The position numbers and the translations under genes are program-made. Below, piece after piece: positions 16,155 to 22,004 of a DNA stretch of 64,000 nt. The stretch comes from Symbiobacterium thermophilum IAM 14863 (GTDB taxonomy: Bacteria; Bacillota; Sulfobacillia; Symbiobacteriales; Symbiobacteriaceae): assembly GCF_000009905.1 (NCBI RefSeq), contig NC_006177.1, forward strand, positions 3,172,595 to 3,236,594. The letters are read 5' to 3'. The notes beneath the pieces are model-generated. The model had not been told where the DNA came from and made no database searches. It saw only the letters and a list, made by a program, of their open reading frames with translations. Numbering within the stretch: the first letter of the stretch is position 1; every line of letters begins with the position of its first letter.

Positions 16155-16687
16155 TAGACGGCATATTCCGCCCCCTGGCCGCCAACGGTTCCCCGGCGAG
16201 CCCCGGTTCGAGGCGAATTGTGCATTTCCCCCACGCGGCACAGTGCACATTTCGCCGTCTCGCCCGCACCCAGTCCCCCTCGGGCCCCCGGTTCCGGGCG
16301 AACTGTACATTCCCCCCACGCTGGGCAGTGCACATTTCGCCTCGTCAACCCCCACCCGCTCCCCCTCGGGCCCCCGGTTCCGGGCGGATTGTACATTCCC
16401 CCCATGACGCGCAGTGCATATTTCGCCGCCTCGCCCGCACCCAGTCCCCCTCGGGCCCCCCCGGTTCCGGGCGGATTGTACACTCCCCCCACGTTGGACA
16501 GCGCACATTTCGCCTCGTCACCCCCACCCGCTCCCCCTCGGGCTCCCGGTTCCGGGCGAATTGTGCATTCCCCCCACGTTGGACAGCGCACATTTCGCCT
16601 CGTCACCCCACCCGCTCCCCCTCGGGCCCCCGGTTCCGGGCTGATTGTACACTCCCCCCACGCTGTGCAGCGCACATTCCGCCGCCT
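16155..16687. repeat. Tandem array of six 84-87 bp hairpin units plus a half unit
   Basis: Units start at the motif CGGTTCC(G/A)GG at 16204, 16289, 16375, 16462, 16547 and 16631 (spacings 85, 86, 87, 85, 84). A degenerate half unit lies at about 16155-16172. Each unit has a left arm such as GGCGAATTGTGCA, a loop with a run of six C, and a right arm such as TGCACATTTCGCC. The 13-base stem has a constant mismatch at position 7. A linker with CCGCTCCCCCTCGGGCCCC or CCAGTCCCCCTCGGGCCCC follows. Two linker types alternate (A-B-A-B-B). Stem differences between units include a compensating change (A-T in unit 1, G-C in unit 6 at stem position 5). Of the wobble-type differences, seven give G-U on the minus-strand RNA and three on the plus strand. 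The open frames across it repeat the same peptides in all minus frames and are not taken as genes. Confidence 0.9.
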
Positions 16688-16929
16688 GGACGCCCCCCTG
16701 GAGGGGATGCGCCCGGCCGCCCTGGCCGTGACCGATGCAGACCAGCTTTCTGCAGGGGGTCGGCATTCACCCGGCGTTCATTCACGCGGAAGACCTGTGC
16801 CTGAAGGGCCTAGCAGGTCCCCGGGTGCCTTCCGCGCCCTGCCCGGGACGGGTCAGCGCCCGGCTGGAGTCCCAGAGCCAGGACGACAGACAGGGAACCC
16901 GCAGCCCATGGGGTGGCCACCCAAATCGA

Positions 16930-17059: not shown

Positions 17060-17938
17060 TTAGGGCAGCGGCAGGCCCGCGAGCCCGTCCGGATCCGCGT
17101 CGAACGCGCCCGCCGGCTCCTCATCTTCCACGGGTACTTCCTGGCCTGGCTCCAGAGCCGCCTCCGGCCAACCGTCGCCAGGTTCAGGCAGCGGCCTGTC
17201 CGCGAGCGGCCCGTGACAGAGCTGCCGGTACTCGCACCGGGCGCAGAGGCGCGGATCCCCCGTGGGCGGAAACCCGTCCGGCGGCGTGGCCAGGATCTGC
17301 GCCACCAGCTGCCGCAGCCGCCGGCCGTCCTCCCGGAACCGGGCCGCGCTGTACGGCAGCCGCTCCTCCCGCCCCCCTCGCAGCGGGTTCCAGTAGACCA
17401 TCGACACCCGGTCGGGGTCGAACGCGCCGCCGGGAGCGTAAGCGCCGCCGGCCGCGCAGAGCACATAGCGGTAGACCGTCGTCTGAAAGGCGGCCTCCAG
17501 CTTCGCCCGGGGCGGCATGTGGCGCAGGGTCTTCCAGTCGTAGATTGTCGCCTCCCCGTCGGGCGCCACGACCACCAGGTCGAACCTGGCCACCAGCCGC
17601 AGCGCCGGCTCGGACAGCCGCAGCTCCAGCTCGGGGTAATAGGCGTACCCCGGACGCCGGGGGAGGTAGCGCACCAGCTTCTGCATCCAGTCCTCCAGCT
17701 CCGCCCGGTCGGCGGGGGCGCCCAGGGTGCCCGGCTCCAGGCCGCTGTAGTACCGCCGGGCCATCAGGTGGAAGCGCTCGCCCTGCAGCATCGCCCGCCG
17801 CTCCTCCGGGTCATCGGGCAGGCCGGGAATGGCGAGCCCGTCGACGTACCGCCGGCGGAAGCGCAGGGGGCATTCCGCGTAGAGCCGCAGGGCAAGGGCG
17901 CTGAAGTGCCGCTCGTGCAGAGGGATCGGCTGCGCCAC
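17060..17938 (-). CDS. Fe-S PD-(D/E)XK nuclease (RecB/AddB/Cas4-like), stand-alone
   Basis: This 292-residue single-domain nuclease begins with LSALALRLYAECPLRFRRRYV-type sequence (first cluster Cys, residue about 21). Motif I is QGERFHLMARRYY. The catalytic core is LVARFDLVVVAPDGEATIYDWKT (metal-binding Asp and the D-x-K motif), then a QTTVYRYVL motif. The C-terminal LCARCEYRQLC supplies three more cysteines. The Cys...CX2CX5C arrangement is the 4Fe-4S staple of AddB and Cas4 nucleases. The last 45 residues are acidic and probably disordered. The GTG at 17938 follows AGGAGGTGA, which overlaps the helicase stop. It should be the nuclease of the three-gene helicase complex upstream. Confidence 0.85.
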   Translation of the reverse strand: MAQPIPLHERHFSALALRLYAECPLRFRRRYVDGLAIPGLPDDPEERRAMLQGERFHLMARRYYSGLEPGTLGAPADRAELEDWMQKLVRYLPRRPGYAYYPELELRLSEPALRLVARFDLVVVAPDGEATIYDWKTLRHMPPRAKLEAAFQTTVYRYVLCAAGGAYAPGGAFDPDRVSMVYWNPLRGGREERLPYSAARFREDGRRLRQLVAQILATPPDGFPPTGDPRLCARCEYRQLCHGPLADRPLPEPGDGWPEAALEPGQEVPVEDEEPAGAFDADPDGLAGLPLP

Positions 17939-17946
17939 GGATCCGG

Positions 17947-19968
17947 TCACCTCCTCGCCTGGACGAACTGCCGAAGCCGCACCACCGCCGGCGGGGGAGC
18001 GGTGTCGTATCCCCGCTCGTTGCGCCAGTGATAGGAGAGCAGGAGGTTGCGGCGAGCCCGGGTGATGGCCACGTAGAGCAGCCGGATCTTCTCGCCGATC
18101 TGCTCCCGCTTGAACGCCGCCGCGGGATCTTCGGAAACCCCGCCGGCGCCGGCCAGCTGATCCAGCAGGGCCAGCGCCCTCGCCTCGGGGTTGACCTGCC
18201 CCGGCACCAGCGACCATTGCTCCGAGAGGGTCCGGTCGCGCAGTCCGCCGGTGAAGAAGCCCCGGGTGAGGCCCGCGACGTAGACGGTGTCCCACTCCAG
18301 CCCCTTGGCGGCGTGGCAGGTGGTCACGTACACCACGCCGGGCTGGGGCTCGAAGCCCTGCCGGTCGTACAGCGCATCGGCCAGCCAGCCCGATCGGCCG
18401 AGGGCGTCCGCCAGCTCCCGGGCCACGTCGCCGGGGCCGTAGAGCGGCTCCTCCTCCAGGAGCCGCCTGGCCCGCAGGGCCAGGTACTGCGCCAGGGCCA
18501 GGTCCTCGCCGGAGAGCCGCAGGTCGGCCGCCATCCGCAGGAGCAGGACATCCGCCGGCTGCACGGCGTCCGCCAGCCAGCGGTCGAGGTACGGTTCCAG
18601 GCGGGCGGCCGCCGCGCGCCGCTCCGGCACGTGGGGCGCCGCCAGGAAGGCCAGGGCGGCCAGGAGGTCCGACCCCAGCCGCAGCCGCTCCAGGGGGGCC
18701 GTCCTGCCCACCGGGATGGCCGGGGCTTCCCGGTCCCGCAGGAGCGCCAGCATCCGGTCCACCATCGCGTGGGTGGGGAGCAGCACGCCCACGGTCGCCT
18801 CCGGGTAGAGCCGCACGGACCGGGCGGCCAGCCCCGCAATCCGGTCCATCTCCTCCTCGTAGGCCGGAAAGTCCCGGACGAGGACGCGGCGCCCCTCCGG
18901 CTCCGGGTTGGACTGCCCCATCCCCCTGGGAACCCGCTGGATATACTGCGGCTCGAGGGCGTCCCGGCAGCCGGGCTCCGGGTAGTCCTGGCAGGTCCAG
19001 CGCACCAGTTCATTGGCCAGGTCGATGATCTCCTGGCTGGAGCGGCCGGCCATGGTGAGGGGGCGGACGTCCACCCCCGGTTCACGGATGAAGGCCCGGA
19101 AGAGCGCCGGCTCCGCCGTGGTGAAGCTGCCCATGATCGCCTGGTTGGGGTCGCCCACCCGCACGAAGTTGCCGCCAGGGCCGGCCAGGAGGCGGAGCAC
19201 CTGCTCCTGCAGCCGGTACGAGTCCTGCGCCTCATCCTCAAACACGTAGGTCCACCGCTGCCGGAGCCGCTCCAGCAGGTCGGGCTCGCCGGTCAGGAGC
19301 CGGTAGGCTCCCAGCATCATGTCGTCGAAGTCCACCAGTCCCTCCCGGGCCAGAGCCCGCTGGTAGTCCCGGTAGATCTCCGCCGCCCAGCGGAGGGGCT
19401 CGGTGTCGGGGAGGCCCCGGGTCAGTGACAGCGCGTCGTCCGGCGAAAGCTGCCGCGCCTTGAAGGACTGGATCAACCGGCTCATCAGCTCGGGGGTGTG
19501 CTCCGCCCACCGCGCCAGCGCCTGGTCGCGGTTGCGGACATCCTCCCGGACCAGCGCCTCCCAGGTGTCCCGGTGTGCGGCGATCCACCCGGCCGTGAGG
19601 GCGTTGACCAGGGTCCTGCGGCGAACCTCGTCCAGCACGGCGAACGTGTCCGGCCAGCCGATGGCCTCCGGCCGCTCCCGGACGATCTGCACGGCCAGGG
19701 AGTGGATGGTGCGCACCTCGAAGCCCGCGCGGGGCAGGCCCCGAGCCTCCAGGAACTGACCGATGCGGTTCTTGAAATTGCCCACGGCGGAGTTGGTGTA
19801 GGTGACGATCAGGATCCGGCCGGGGAGGTGGCGCCCCTCGGCGATGAGGTCGGCGGCCAGATACGCCAGCACCGTGGTCTTGCCGGCGCCGGGCACCGCC
19901 GGGACGGCCATGTACCCGCCCCGGTACGCGGCCACCTGGACCTGGTCGGGACGCAGGGTGATGGTCAC
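17947..19968 (-). CDS. UvrD/PcrA-type SF1A helicase
   Basis: This 673-residue 3'-5' DNA helicase has all motifs: I VPAVPGAGKTTVLAYLA (residues about 20-36), Ia ILIVTYTNSAVGNFKNRI, II YVFEDEAQDS, III VRVGDPNQAIMGSF, IV in the GVLLPTHAMVDRML region, V TTCHAAKGLEWDTVYV and VI IRLLYVAITRARRNLLLSY. It lacks a nuclease domain. It starts with GTG overlapping the upstream gene's stop (GTGA), and its own stop lies inside the ribosome site of the nuclease gene. All three should be made in fixed ratio. It resembles the AddA helicase half without its nuclease. Housekeeping PcrA would be longer and lie elsewhere. Confidence 0.92.
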   Translation of the reverse strand: MTITLRPDQVQVAAYRGGYMAVPAVPGAGKTTVLAYLAADLIAEGRHLPGRILIVTYTNSAVGNFKNRIGQFLEARGLPRAGFEVRTIHSLAVQIVRERPEAIGWPDTFAVLDEVRRRTLVNALTAGWIAAHRDTWEALVREDVRNRDQALARWAEHTPELMSRLIQSFKARQLSPDDALSLTRGLPDTEPLRWAAEIYRDYQRALAREGLVDFDDMMLGAYRLLTGEPDLLERLRQRWTYVFEDEAQDSYRLQEQVLRLLAGPGGNFVRVGDPNQAIMGSFTTAEPALFRAFIREPGVDVRPLTMAGRSSQEIIDLANELVRWTCQDYPEPGCRDALEPQYIQRVPRGMGQSNPEPEGRRVLVRDFPAYEEEMDRIAGLAARSVRLYPEATVGVLLPTHAMVDRMLALLRDREAPAIPVGRTAPLERLRLGSDLLAALAFLAAPHVPERRAAAARLEPYLDRWLADAVQPADVLLLRMAADLRLSGEDLALAQYLALRARRLLEEEPLYGPGDVARELADALGRSGWLADALYDRQGFEPQPGVVYVTTCHAAKGLEWDTVYVAGLTRGFFTGGLRDRTLSEQWSLVPGQVNPEARALALLDQLAGAGGVSEDPAAAFKREQIGEKIRLLYVAITRARRNLLLSYHWRNERGYDTAPPPAVVRLRQFVQARR

Positions 19969-22004
19969 GCCCACAGCCCCCCTTCCTGCTCCTGGACCCA
20001 CGGGCTCAGGGCGGCCTCCGCGGTGATGACCGGGCCGTCGCACCGGCGCAGCAGGGCGCGCACCGTGCGGTCCCGGGCGGCCTGCCGGACCCGGCGGGAC
20101 TGGGCATCCGTCCACGGTGCGCCCTCCGGCCAGCCGGGGGCCAGCACGTGGGGGTTGGCCAGCTCGGAGGCGCCGGCGGGCAGCCAGCCGGGGGAGGTGA
20201 CATCCAGCCAGACCTGCGCCGCCGAGGTCAGCCGGCGGCTCAGGTACGCCTGCGGCGTCGCCAGCAGCACGGCCCCGTCCCCCTCGTCCTCCGGGTCCGG
20301 CCACAGCGGGCAGGTGGCCTCGGTGAGCAGCGGCCGGTAGTTCATGCCGAAGAGGTCGGCGCCCGGACCCGCCGGGGGCTGGGAGTTCCCGGCCGGGGGC
20401 TGGGCGTTTCCGTCCGGGGCCTGCAGATTCCTGTCCCGGGCCTGGGGCGCGGCCGCGAGCCGCTCCGCGGCCAGGCGGAAGTCCGACGCAGCCCGCAGCA
20501 GCTGACGGCAGGCCCTGACCGACTCCTTCGGCAGGTCGGGCCGCAGGGGGAGCAGCACCTCCAACAGGGCGGCCCGGACGAAGGCGTCGGTCTGCCACGT
20601 CCTCCCGCGGGCCGCCCGCAGCCACCCGTGAAGCGGCCGGTACGGCGCCGGATGGCCGGCGGGATCGGGCAGGTCGTCCCCGGCTTCCCAGAGCGCCTGT
20701 CCCAGGTGGGCGGCGGCTGCCGGGTCGAGCCCCAGCAGCACCCGAACGGCGTCGGCCAAGGGACCCGGCGACGGCCACGGCGGCCGCCAGGACGGCACGG
20801 CCAGGCCGGCGAGCGCGACGATGGCCCGCACGGCGGGATCATCCAGGAGCCGGCGGGTCGGGACCAACGGCAGAAGGGCAATCCCCCGGGCCGCCAGGGC
20901 CTGGCCCAGGGCGGTGGCCAGCAGGTGGTCGACCCGGGGCGCAAGGACGGCGATCTCCCCGGGTCTGAGCCCCGCGGCCACGAGGCCGGCCACCGCCTCG
21001 GCCGCCCGGTTCACCATGTCGCCCCAGAACTCGGCGGCCATGTGGTAACACGGGGACGGGGCGCATGGAACCTCCTGCGGCGACCCCGACCGCGGGCGGC
21101 GGTCAGGCGGGGCCGGCGCCGACCGGGCCTCCCGGACGGCCGCCAGCCGTTCCTCGAGGCTGGGGGCCGGGTCAGGCAGGCAGATCCGGTGGGCGCGGGC
21201 GAATCGGTTCAGGATTCCCCTGGGGTCCGCCCCCTGCAGGAAGGCGTGGCCTCCATCAGGGTCGAGGGCGATGGCCGCCTCCTCCACCGCCTCCGCCATC
21301 GCCACAAGAAACGGCTGCTCGGCCGGCGCGGCCTCGTCCGCGTCGTCCACCAGCAGCCGCCGGAACCTGGCCCGCAGGCGGGCGCGGTAGGCGGGATCCG
21401 GCAGCAGGCCGTCCGTGAACAGCGAGAGGGCCAGCCCGTAGTCCAGAAGGCCGGCCTCCAGCATGCGGGCACGGTGCCGCTCCAGGAGGGCCGCGACCTG
21501 CCCGAACAGCAGCCGCTTCTCGGGCCGGTCGGCCTGGGCCATTCGCCGCACCGCATCCTCCAGTTCCAGCCCCGCCGCCGCGGCCGCCCGGTCGACCCGG
21601 GTGAGCAGCTGCAGCGCCAGCCGTTCGGGCGTGGCCCTCACCACGTCGCCGAACAGGGCGTAATGGGGCTCCAGCAGGGCCTGCAGCAGGCGGCGTTCCA
21701 CCGTGAGGGGCAGAAAGGCCGGCGCCAGCCAGCGGGCGGCTGCCGGCACCCTGGCCTGCAGGGCCGGCCAGTGCAGCGTCAGCTCCTGCCGGACGAAGCC
21801 GTAGAAGTCGTACGCCTGGACGGCGCCGCCCGAGGGCAGGTCCGGACCGCGCACCCACGGGGCGGTCTGCTCCGCCCCGTGGGTGAGGATGAGGATCTGA
21901 TCGGTGCGCACGCCCTCCCGGAGCCACTGCTGGAACCGGCCGCGGAGGACCGTCGTCTTGCCGGACCGGGCCGGGCCCGTGATCAGCGTGACCGCCGCGG
22001 ACAC
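19965..22004 (-). CDS. AddB-like SF1 helicase-family protein
   Basis: This 679-residue protein has a Walker A ITGPARSGKTTVL (residues about 8-20), an Ia-like ILILTHGAEQTAPW, a degenerate Walker B RRLLVDDADEA, and a second helicase-like half with GEIAVLAPRVDHLLATALGQAL and LLDDPAVRAIVALAGLAV. Motifs V and VI are not clear. The C-terminus (VWLDVTSPGWLPAG...LANPHVLAPGW) is family-specific and unlike UvrD. The overall plan is like AddB: a helicase fold that probably scans or stabilises rather than drives unwinding. A low-complexity linker with NAQPPAGNSQPPAG-type repeats lies near residue 530. It is translationally coupled to the helicase downstream. Confidence 0.75.
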   Translation of the reverse strand: MSAAVTLITGPARSGKTTVLRGRFQQWLREGVRTDQILILTHGAEQTAPWVRGPDLPSGGAVQAYDFYGFVRQELTLHWPALQARVPAAARWLAPAFLPLTVERRLLQALLEPHYALFGDVVRATPERLALQLLTRVDRAAAAAGLELEDAVRRMAQADRPEKRLLFGQVAALLERHRARMLEAGLLDYGLALSLFTDGLLPDPAYRARLRARFRRLLVDDADEAAPAEQPFLVAMAEAVEEAAIALDPDGGHAFLQGADPRGILNRFARAHRICLPDPAPSLEERLAAVREARSAPAPPDRRPRSGSPQEVPCAPSPCYHMAAEFWGDMVNRAAEAVAGLVAAGLRPGEIAVLAPRVDHLLATALGQALAARGIALLPLVPTRRLLDDPAVRAIVALAGLAVPSWRPPWPSPGPLADAVRVLLGLDPAAAAHLGQALWEAGDDLPDPAGHPAPYRPLHGWLRAARGRTWQTDAFVRAALLEVLLPLRPDLPKESVRACRQLLRAASDFRLAAERLAAAPQARDRNLQAPDGNAQPPAGNSQPPAGPGADLFGMNYRPLLTEATCPLWPDPEDEGDGAVLLATPQAYLSRRLTSAAQVWLDVTSPGWLPAGASELANPHVLAPGWPEGAPWTDAQSRRVRQAARDRTVRALLRRCDGPVITAEAALSPWVQEQEGGLWA

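Follow-up and report, generated by a model that had tools for sequence, protein, structure and literature searches.

Three overlapping genes of Symbiobacterium thermophilum IAM 14863, here called P1, P2 and P3, probably encode the central components of a DNA-end resection machine that has four parts, belongs to the AddAB/AdnAB class and keeps its nuclease on a subunit of its own, a reading to which we give somewhat better than even credence. Their products are more likely to form a DNA-repair complex of an undescribed kind than a virus-defence system, and the fourth part would be a RecJ paralogue (gene recJ2) carried by most of the relatives examined. The genes lie in the window, the whole stretch of 64,000 nucleotides that was analysed (contig NC_006177.1, positions 3,172,595 to 3,236,594), in a genome assembled as a single contig of 3,566,135 bases that is 99.94% complete. 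The features concerned are the following, in window coordinates.

P1: 19965..22004, minus strand (22004-19965), 679 amino acids; putative pseudo-helicase with UvrD fold, AddB/AdnA-like, no nuclease domain.
P1/P2 junction: 19965..19968, minus strand; GTGA start-stop overlap.
P2: 17947..19968, minus strand (19968-17947), 673 amino acids from the GTG that overlaps the P1 stop; predicted SF1A (UvrD/PcrA-like) helicase, no nuclease domain.
P2/P3 junction: 17947..17950, minus strand; GTGA start-stop overlap.
P3: 17060..17950, minus strand (17950-17060), 296 amino acids; predicted stand-alone four-cysteine (Fe-S type) PD-(D/E)XK nuclease, AdnA/AddB type.
Interval 3' of P3: 16053..17059, no strand; ~85-bp tandem repeats and no recJ, the slot of recJ2 in relatives.

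This layout bears out a preliminary description of the window, which had placed three genes with start-stop overlaps here. The starts of P2 and P3 were inferred from the GTGA overlaps and are putative. In the list of open reading frames (ORFs) the P2 frame is open upstream to 943 amino acids and that of P3 to 411, lengths that we set aside because the extensions fall within the preceding gene, the overlapping GTG being preferred in both cases. The P2 frame is likewise open (958 amino acids) in G402, a sister genome of the same genus, and we read this long frame as a shadow of P1, whose own frame is conserved.

The state of the motifs in our alignments (38 sequences for P1 and 36 each for P2 and P3, those of the window included) points to one likely motor, P2, one likely pseudo-helicase, P1, and one likely active Fe-S-type nuclease, P3. 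P2 matches the Pfam families UvrD-helicase (2.6e-48) and UvrD_C (1.8e-16) with no nuclease domain listed, and motifs I-VI retain their key residues in 35 or 36 of the 36 sequences, with one T-to-S change in motif VI, so that its earlier description as a nuclease-free UvrD helicase stands. It is nearest to PcrA/Rep among NCBIfam models and does not pass the curated AddA model (96.9 bits, cut-off 707.65); its match to the AddA profile was 2e-50 in a profile comparison that had the PcrA profile outside it. An apparent fusion of P2 to a nuclease in genome G379 (a frame of 1097 amino acids) was ruled out, since locus L090 shows an overlapping frame near whose end P2 starts.

P1 retains a helicase fold and a P-loop. 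Its Pfam match to the UvrD-helicase N-terminal family is weak and above the cut-off (2.4e-6), with no nuclease domain listed. The P-loop glycines G10 and G15 are invariant and the Walker-A lysine is kept in 37 of the 38 sequences (R in one), but the position of the Walker-B glutamate is occupied by D in 25 sequences, by N in 12 and by E in only one. Neither a conserved motif III glutamine nor motifs IV-VI could be recognised by eye in this alignment, and the second half of P1 had rightly been called degenerate.

The predicted structure of P1 (pLDDT 79) has the SF1A fold along its whole length. Its VIA-align Z scores are highest for UvrD/Rep/PcrA (up to 25-27), followed by AdnB (23.3, over 566 residues at 4.9 A), AdnA (21.8) and AddB (20.7, over 563 residues at 5.5 A, spanning AddB 2-686, the helicase-like part of AddB), a ranking that files the P1 model as SF1A with no single closest subfamily. 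Profile comparison ordered its relatives as AddB (9e-14), AddA (1e-12) and P2 (4e-11), and P1 had no NCBIfam match up to E 1 and did not pass the curated AddB model. The label AddB-like given to P1 in the preliminary description is partly borne out, by structural and profile matches to AddB, whereas UvrD/Rep, AdnB and AdnA all score higher structurally. Its C-terminus (~residues 576-677) had also been called family-specific, which holds for the sequence; in the predicted structure this region appears to be the end of an ordinary helicase fold, because the UvrD and AddB structural matches reach residue 679.

P3 carries the sole nuclease domain among the three proteins (Pfam PDDEXK_1, 2.4e-31). 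Cysteines C27, C236, C239 and C245 are invariant in 36/36 sequences, as are D124, D138-W-K140, Q156 and Y160, and this arrangement appears to fit the one-plus-three cysteine pattern around the nuclease core of the AddB Fe-S nuclease, in agreement with the earlier designation of P3 as a stand-alone Cas4/AddB-type Fe-S nuclease. The structure model (pLDDT 82, with a low-confidence C-terminal tail at residues 251-296) best matches the nuclease domain of AdnA (9np6_A, Z 18.7, 217 residues, 3.2 A, 18% identity), then ACE1 (Z 15.2), AddB (14.0), type I-C Cas4 (12.0) and Dna2 (10.1). P3 does not pass the curated Cas4 model TIGR00372 (17.4 bits, cut-off 65). The only solved proteins that its profile found at E up to 0.1 are PDB 9iab and 9iac, which are ACE1, Argonaute-associated Cas4-family proteins of Chroococcidiopsis and Microcystis; a literature search that reached few subscription papers found no paper on these entries.

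The distribution of the three genes, whose mapping had been suggested with the original proposal, shows that P1-P2-P3 is a conserved unit. Our sample was an even selection of 398 Bacillota genomes out of a larger group, and the line between strong and weak matches was set after viewing the lists (3.3e-31 versus the next value of 8.9e-11 for P1, and 1.5e-28 versus 4.1e-7 for P3). P1 had any match in 40/398 genomes and a strong match in 27, and P3 in 35 and 27, respectively; the other eight P3 matches are weak, and seven of them lie on frames of more than 900 amino acids. The sets of genomes with strong P1 and with strong stand-alone P3 are identical, comprising the same 27 genomes across 17 families (Fisher p 1.7e-42, kinship ignored). 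P1 matched strongly in four of five genomes of the window's own family, the fifth being 88% complete, and in none of 15 other genomes of its class. Among 98 Fusobacteriota genomes, P1 had any match in 16 and a strong match in 14, and P3 in 14 and 11; all 11 strong P3 matches fall inside the 14 P1 genomes and none in the 84 others, always on a contig other than that of P1. Some of these assemblies are fragmented, but in others (e.g. G444 and G461) P1 and P3 lie deep in large contigs. A strong P3 match without P1 was found in neither sample.

The order P1-P2-P3 is the same in all 20 wide Bacillota loci retrieved (one P3 being cut by a contig end), which argues that the arrangement reflects more than chance. 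We also compiled 39 distinct loci, told apart by a P1 segment of 200 residues, with duplicate copies and G004/G051 merged; the window itself is not among them, as automatic ORF selection passed over P1 in its GC-rich sequence. P2 follows P1 in 38 of them and all three genes stand side by side in 36, the exceptions being L064 (contig end), L093 (N-filled, with P3 next door) and L087 from Propionigenium, which has P2-P3 together and P1 elsewhere. Plasmid-borne P1 was seen only on Salinibacter pSR56 and Ilyobacter pILYOP01; the Salinibacter ruber plasmid carries all four genes in order (BLAST for P1, P2 and RecJ, tblastn for P3). The lone P1 genes of Propionigenium (L087 8461-11962) and Ilyobacter (L137 9861-13965, on the 962-kb pILYOP01) both lie near small hypothetical genes and a GTP-pyrophosphokinase gene, which is annotated in Ilyobacter and was recognised by eye in Propionigenium.

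In one respect the preliminary description fell short, as it took the unit for a three-gene module. In 34 of the 39 distinct loci P3 is followed, on the same strand, by a gene for a RecJ paralogue; this gene is not visible in the window, whose genus is without it. Of the five loci without the gene, three (L052, L059 and L064) run into a contig end inside the module or where it finishes, L057 lies 1.4 kb from a contig end, and the fifth is the Propionigenium locus, in which P1 is unlinked. The gap between P3 and RecJ is shorter than 130 bases in 25 of the 33 measured, most of the others being Halanaerobium loci with 300-690 bases, and holds a small ORF in six loci. In the RecJ tree, the module rows and two rows first labelled 'other' (L117 and L118) form one clade (100/100). 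These two rows were relabelled after the tree had been seen, and by the first labels the group needs three changes; the contig of L117 starts with the rest of a P3 gene, and L118, from G045, lies on a contig other than that of the module. Many rows of this tree deviate from the model in letter composition, and the short fragments L055 and L090 were left out. With two rows added, from Salinibacter and Symbiobacteriaceae, FastTree kept all 36 module RecJ rows together (36/36). Two RecJ motifs are intact in 32/32 module sequences, and standard models label the clade simply RecJ.

Two RecJ loci were counted in 19 of the 27 module genomes, in two of these partly in pieces. Only the module-type RecJ was seen in G045, G184 and G209, and it may therefore do general duty there. 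The single RecJ match of S. thermophilum lies away from the module and groups with the housekeeping clade. In G402 a chemoreceptor gene comes next after P3, as in the window, and in G399, from another genus of the same family, RecJ2 stands between P3 and the shared downstream genes; on the simplest reading of these gene orders, Symbiobacterium would have lost RecJ2. G399 also has an ORF of 263 amino acids on the opposite strand between P2 and P3 (L152 12803-13594), DUF881-like by eye.

Whether a standard addAB exists elsewhere in the genome had been posed as a check of the proposal, and it does: addB-addA lie at 2317264-2324857 in S. thermophilum, both above the curated cut-offs. A long addB frame stands beside a long addA frame in at least 16 of the 27 module genomes, S. 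thermophilum included, and the module thus usually adds to AddAB. No AddB match was found in six of the 27 (G004, G051, G090, G121, G282 and G379); three of these are only 80-85% complete, while G004 and G051, of one genus, are 99% and G282 is 94% complete. In G004, G051 and G282, PDDEXK_1 matches beyond P3 are absent, save very weak ones in G004 and G282. The module may replace AddAB in the genus of G004 and G051, where the absence of AddA was judged among the matches listed. As a separate observation, the AddB proteins of 14 of 16 addBA pairs (L122-L135) have no Walker-A pattern in their first 60 residues; those of S. thermophilum (L120) and G279 (L121) have one.

Comparison with known systems places the module nearest to AddAB and AdnAB and apart from both. 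Like AddAB, it appears to combine one active SF1A motor (P2) with a partner whose motifs are degenerate (P1) and a four-cysteine, Fe-S-type nuclease, and the P1 model spans the helicase-like part of AddB. However, the AddAB subunits each have a fused C-terminal PD-(D/E)XK nuclease, whereas the module has only the separate P3, lacks an AddA-type second nuclease, has a RecJ paralogue in the unit of most relatives and coexists with standard addBA in the same genome. Mycobacterial AdnAB is matched by fold as well, its AdnA nuclease domain by P3 and AdnB by P1. In that enzyme one nuclease is fused to AdnA and another to AdnB, whereas the module has one nuclease, unfused, and no pair of motor-nuclease fusion subunits. 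The domain anatomy and the matches in fold are in keeping with the earlier idea of an AddAB split so that the nuclease forms a subunit by itself. With one nuclease instead of two, however, the module is not simply a cut-up AddAB. RecBCD differs in that P3 is unfused and no RecD model is listed for P1-P3. By analogy, the combination of a helicase with a 5' strand nuclease giving a 3' overhang would recall the RecQ-RecJ/RecFOR and Dna2-type systems, and the P3 model also matches Dna2, if more weakly; the module differs from these in its helicase family, its extra pseudo-helicase and its separate RecJ clade. P2 also scores with UvrD models of GajB from the Gabija system (GajAB; 4.9e-48); this is one of many matches to UvrD proteins, and Pfam finds no OLD/TOPRIM domain in P1 or P3.

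Part of the module seems to have been noticed before. Hudaiberdiev et al. (2017; PMC5704561, in the text accessible) described a predicted operon of unfused UvrD and Cas4-like (pfam12705) genes, found mostly in Clostridiales, whose context they judged not indicative of defence. Likened by description, this operon is probably the P2-P3 part of the module; the accessible main text does not contain 'RecJ' and describes no third helicase-like gene. Our literature search, within its limited reach into subscription journals, found no printed account of the P1 and RecJ2 partners or of the four-gene unit.

The resection reading can be set out as follows. P2 would be the only ATP-driven motor, moving 3' to 5', the polarity known for the SF1A family, and unwinding the duplex from an end. 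P1, which has the fold and the P-loop but no catalytic residues, would play a structural part and scan the strand, much as the helicase-like portion of AddB does. It would also hold P3, which would correspond to the Fe-S nuclease of AddB/AdnA and cut one of the unwound strands. In AddAB, according to the accessible text of PMC4824097, the AddB nuclease degrades the 5' strand and the AddA nuclease the 3' strand, the helicase-like domain of AddB reads Chi, and AdnA is equated with AddB. P3 would thus most likely cut the 5' strand, as AddB does, and RecJ2, where present, would carry on 5' to 3' along the same strand. Because the module lacks an AddA-type nuclease for the 3' strand, a 3' overhang should be left from the start, instead of both strands being degraded until Chi; resection that spares the 3' strand is predicted from the presence of an AddB/AdnA-type nuclease, the lack of the AddA one and the addition of RecJ, a 5' exonuclease. 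What is observed is the domain content, the state of the motifs, the order and co-occurrence of the genes and the distinct clade of RecJ, and from these we infer complex formation, strand polarity, RecA loading and a role in repair.

Several observations weigh against this reading. P1 shows no clear preference for AddB over other SF1A proteins, and P2 matches PcrA (1.2e-45) better than AddA (7.4e-28) among NCBIfam models. Three Fusobacteriota genomes have P1 but no P3 match. The presence of addBA in most module genomes questions the need for a second resectase. Evolutionary distances correlate strongly within the module (Pearson 0.93-0.97, 31-35 genomes). When restricted to the 15 genomes that also supply a housekeeping RecJ, however, these values are 0.76-0.91, compared with 0.63-0.86 for housekeeping RecJ (15-17 genomes) and 0.84-0.88 for AddB (15 genomes). 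We dropped this correlation as a sign of contact, as it is hardly above the housekeeping values on similar sets of genomes.

Among the alternatives, a gap- or fork-processing complex of the RecQ-RecJ or RecFOR type, in which P2 would open nicked or stalled DNA and P3 with RecJ2 would enlarge the gap, fares best, although we consider it unlikely. In E. coli it is RecJ that widens gaps (PMC1193525, accessible text), and both the resemblance of P2 to PcrA/Rep above AddA and the frequent presence of addBA beside the module would suit such a role. However, end-processing enzymes are built on this plan of a pseudo-helicase, an active helicase and a Fe-S nuclease of AdnA/AddB type, and two module genomes are without an AddB match.

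A role in defence or plasmid interference, with the module degrading incoming DNA, is more improbable still, and of the two functions offered in the preliminary description, end resection and defence, we favour the first and regard the second as weakly supported. A patchy distribution, the full operon on pSR56 and the Argonaute association of the only solved relatives of P3 by sequence would fit defence, as would a report that RSF1010 plasmids are favoured in Synechococcus elongatus when a Cas4-like nuclease, UvrD or a RecJ paralogue is lost (PMC10653904, accessible text; the genes are alike by description), which also counts against the resection reading. But the neighbours at one Halanaerobium locus (L058), the locus covered by a family-library scan, are housekeeping genes: PPDK, GMP synthase, a Trp-repressor-like protein, an FAD protein, a peroxiredoxin, DUF456, 2-phosphosulfolactate phosphatase, Hsp33 and a GTPase read as HflX, each family recurring in 9-11 of the 39 loci. 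PADLOC, run on P1-P3, gave only isolated matches to helicase or Cas4-like models, GajB being one (for P2, the best 25 of 54 matches). Relatives of P1 were found neither in phages nor in viral contigs (92 pattern-matching stretches, 0 confirmed), and the Clostridiales context was, as mentioned, judged not indicative of defence. The L058 neighbours and the single-model PADLOC matches therefore make an inherited housekeeping repair system more plausible than a defence island.

That three or four independent repair proteins are merely co-transcribed is very unlikely: P1 stands apart from P2-P3 in Propionigenium and Symbiobacterium retains P1-P3 without RecJ2, but P1 and P3 go together even across contigs, and strong P3 without P1 is missing from both samples.

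If the end-resection reading holds, a further step, which we put forward tentatively and with less confidence, is that bacteria have, in addition to RecBCD, AddAB and AdnAB, a fourth class of DNA-end resectase, represented by the module. This would be a modular four-subunit complex of pseudo-helicase, motor, detached Fe-S nuclease and dedicated RecJ that yields a 3' overhang directly, with no destructive phase and no need for Chi. Bacterial break repair is taught as the work of three fused helicase-nuclease enzymes. Were this proposal true, the motor, scanner, nuclease and exonuclease would be separate proteins in several phyla, so that each step could be removed or swapped alone, allowing a direct test of whether resection needs a 3'-strand nuclease and Chi. 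The second RecJ clade would then gain a defined role, and the UvrD/Cas4-like operon that was noticed in print and left unexplained would be accounted for.

Two minor features of the genome deserve mention. Between P3 and the chemoreceptor gene, window positions 16201-16705 hold five tandem copies at a spacing of ~85 bp, in which an imperfect inverted repeat, GGCGAATTGTGCA...TGCACATTTCGCC, can be seen by eye. Elsewhere in the same genome, three UvrD-helicase matches lie inside ~10 kb (G000:C1:1439649-1449902).

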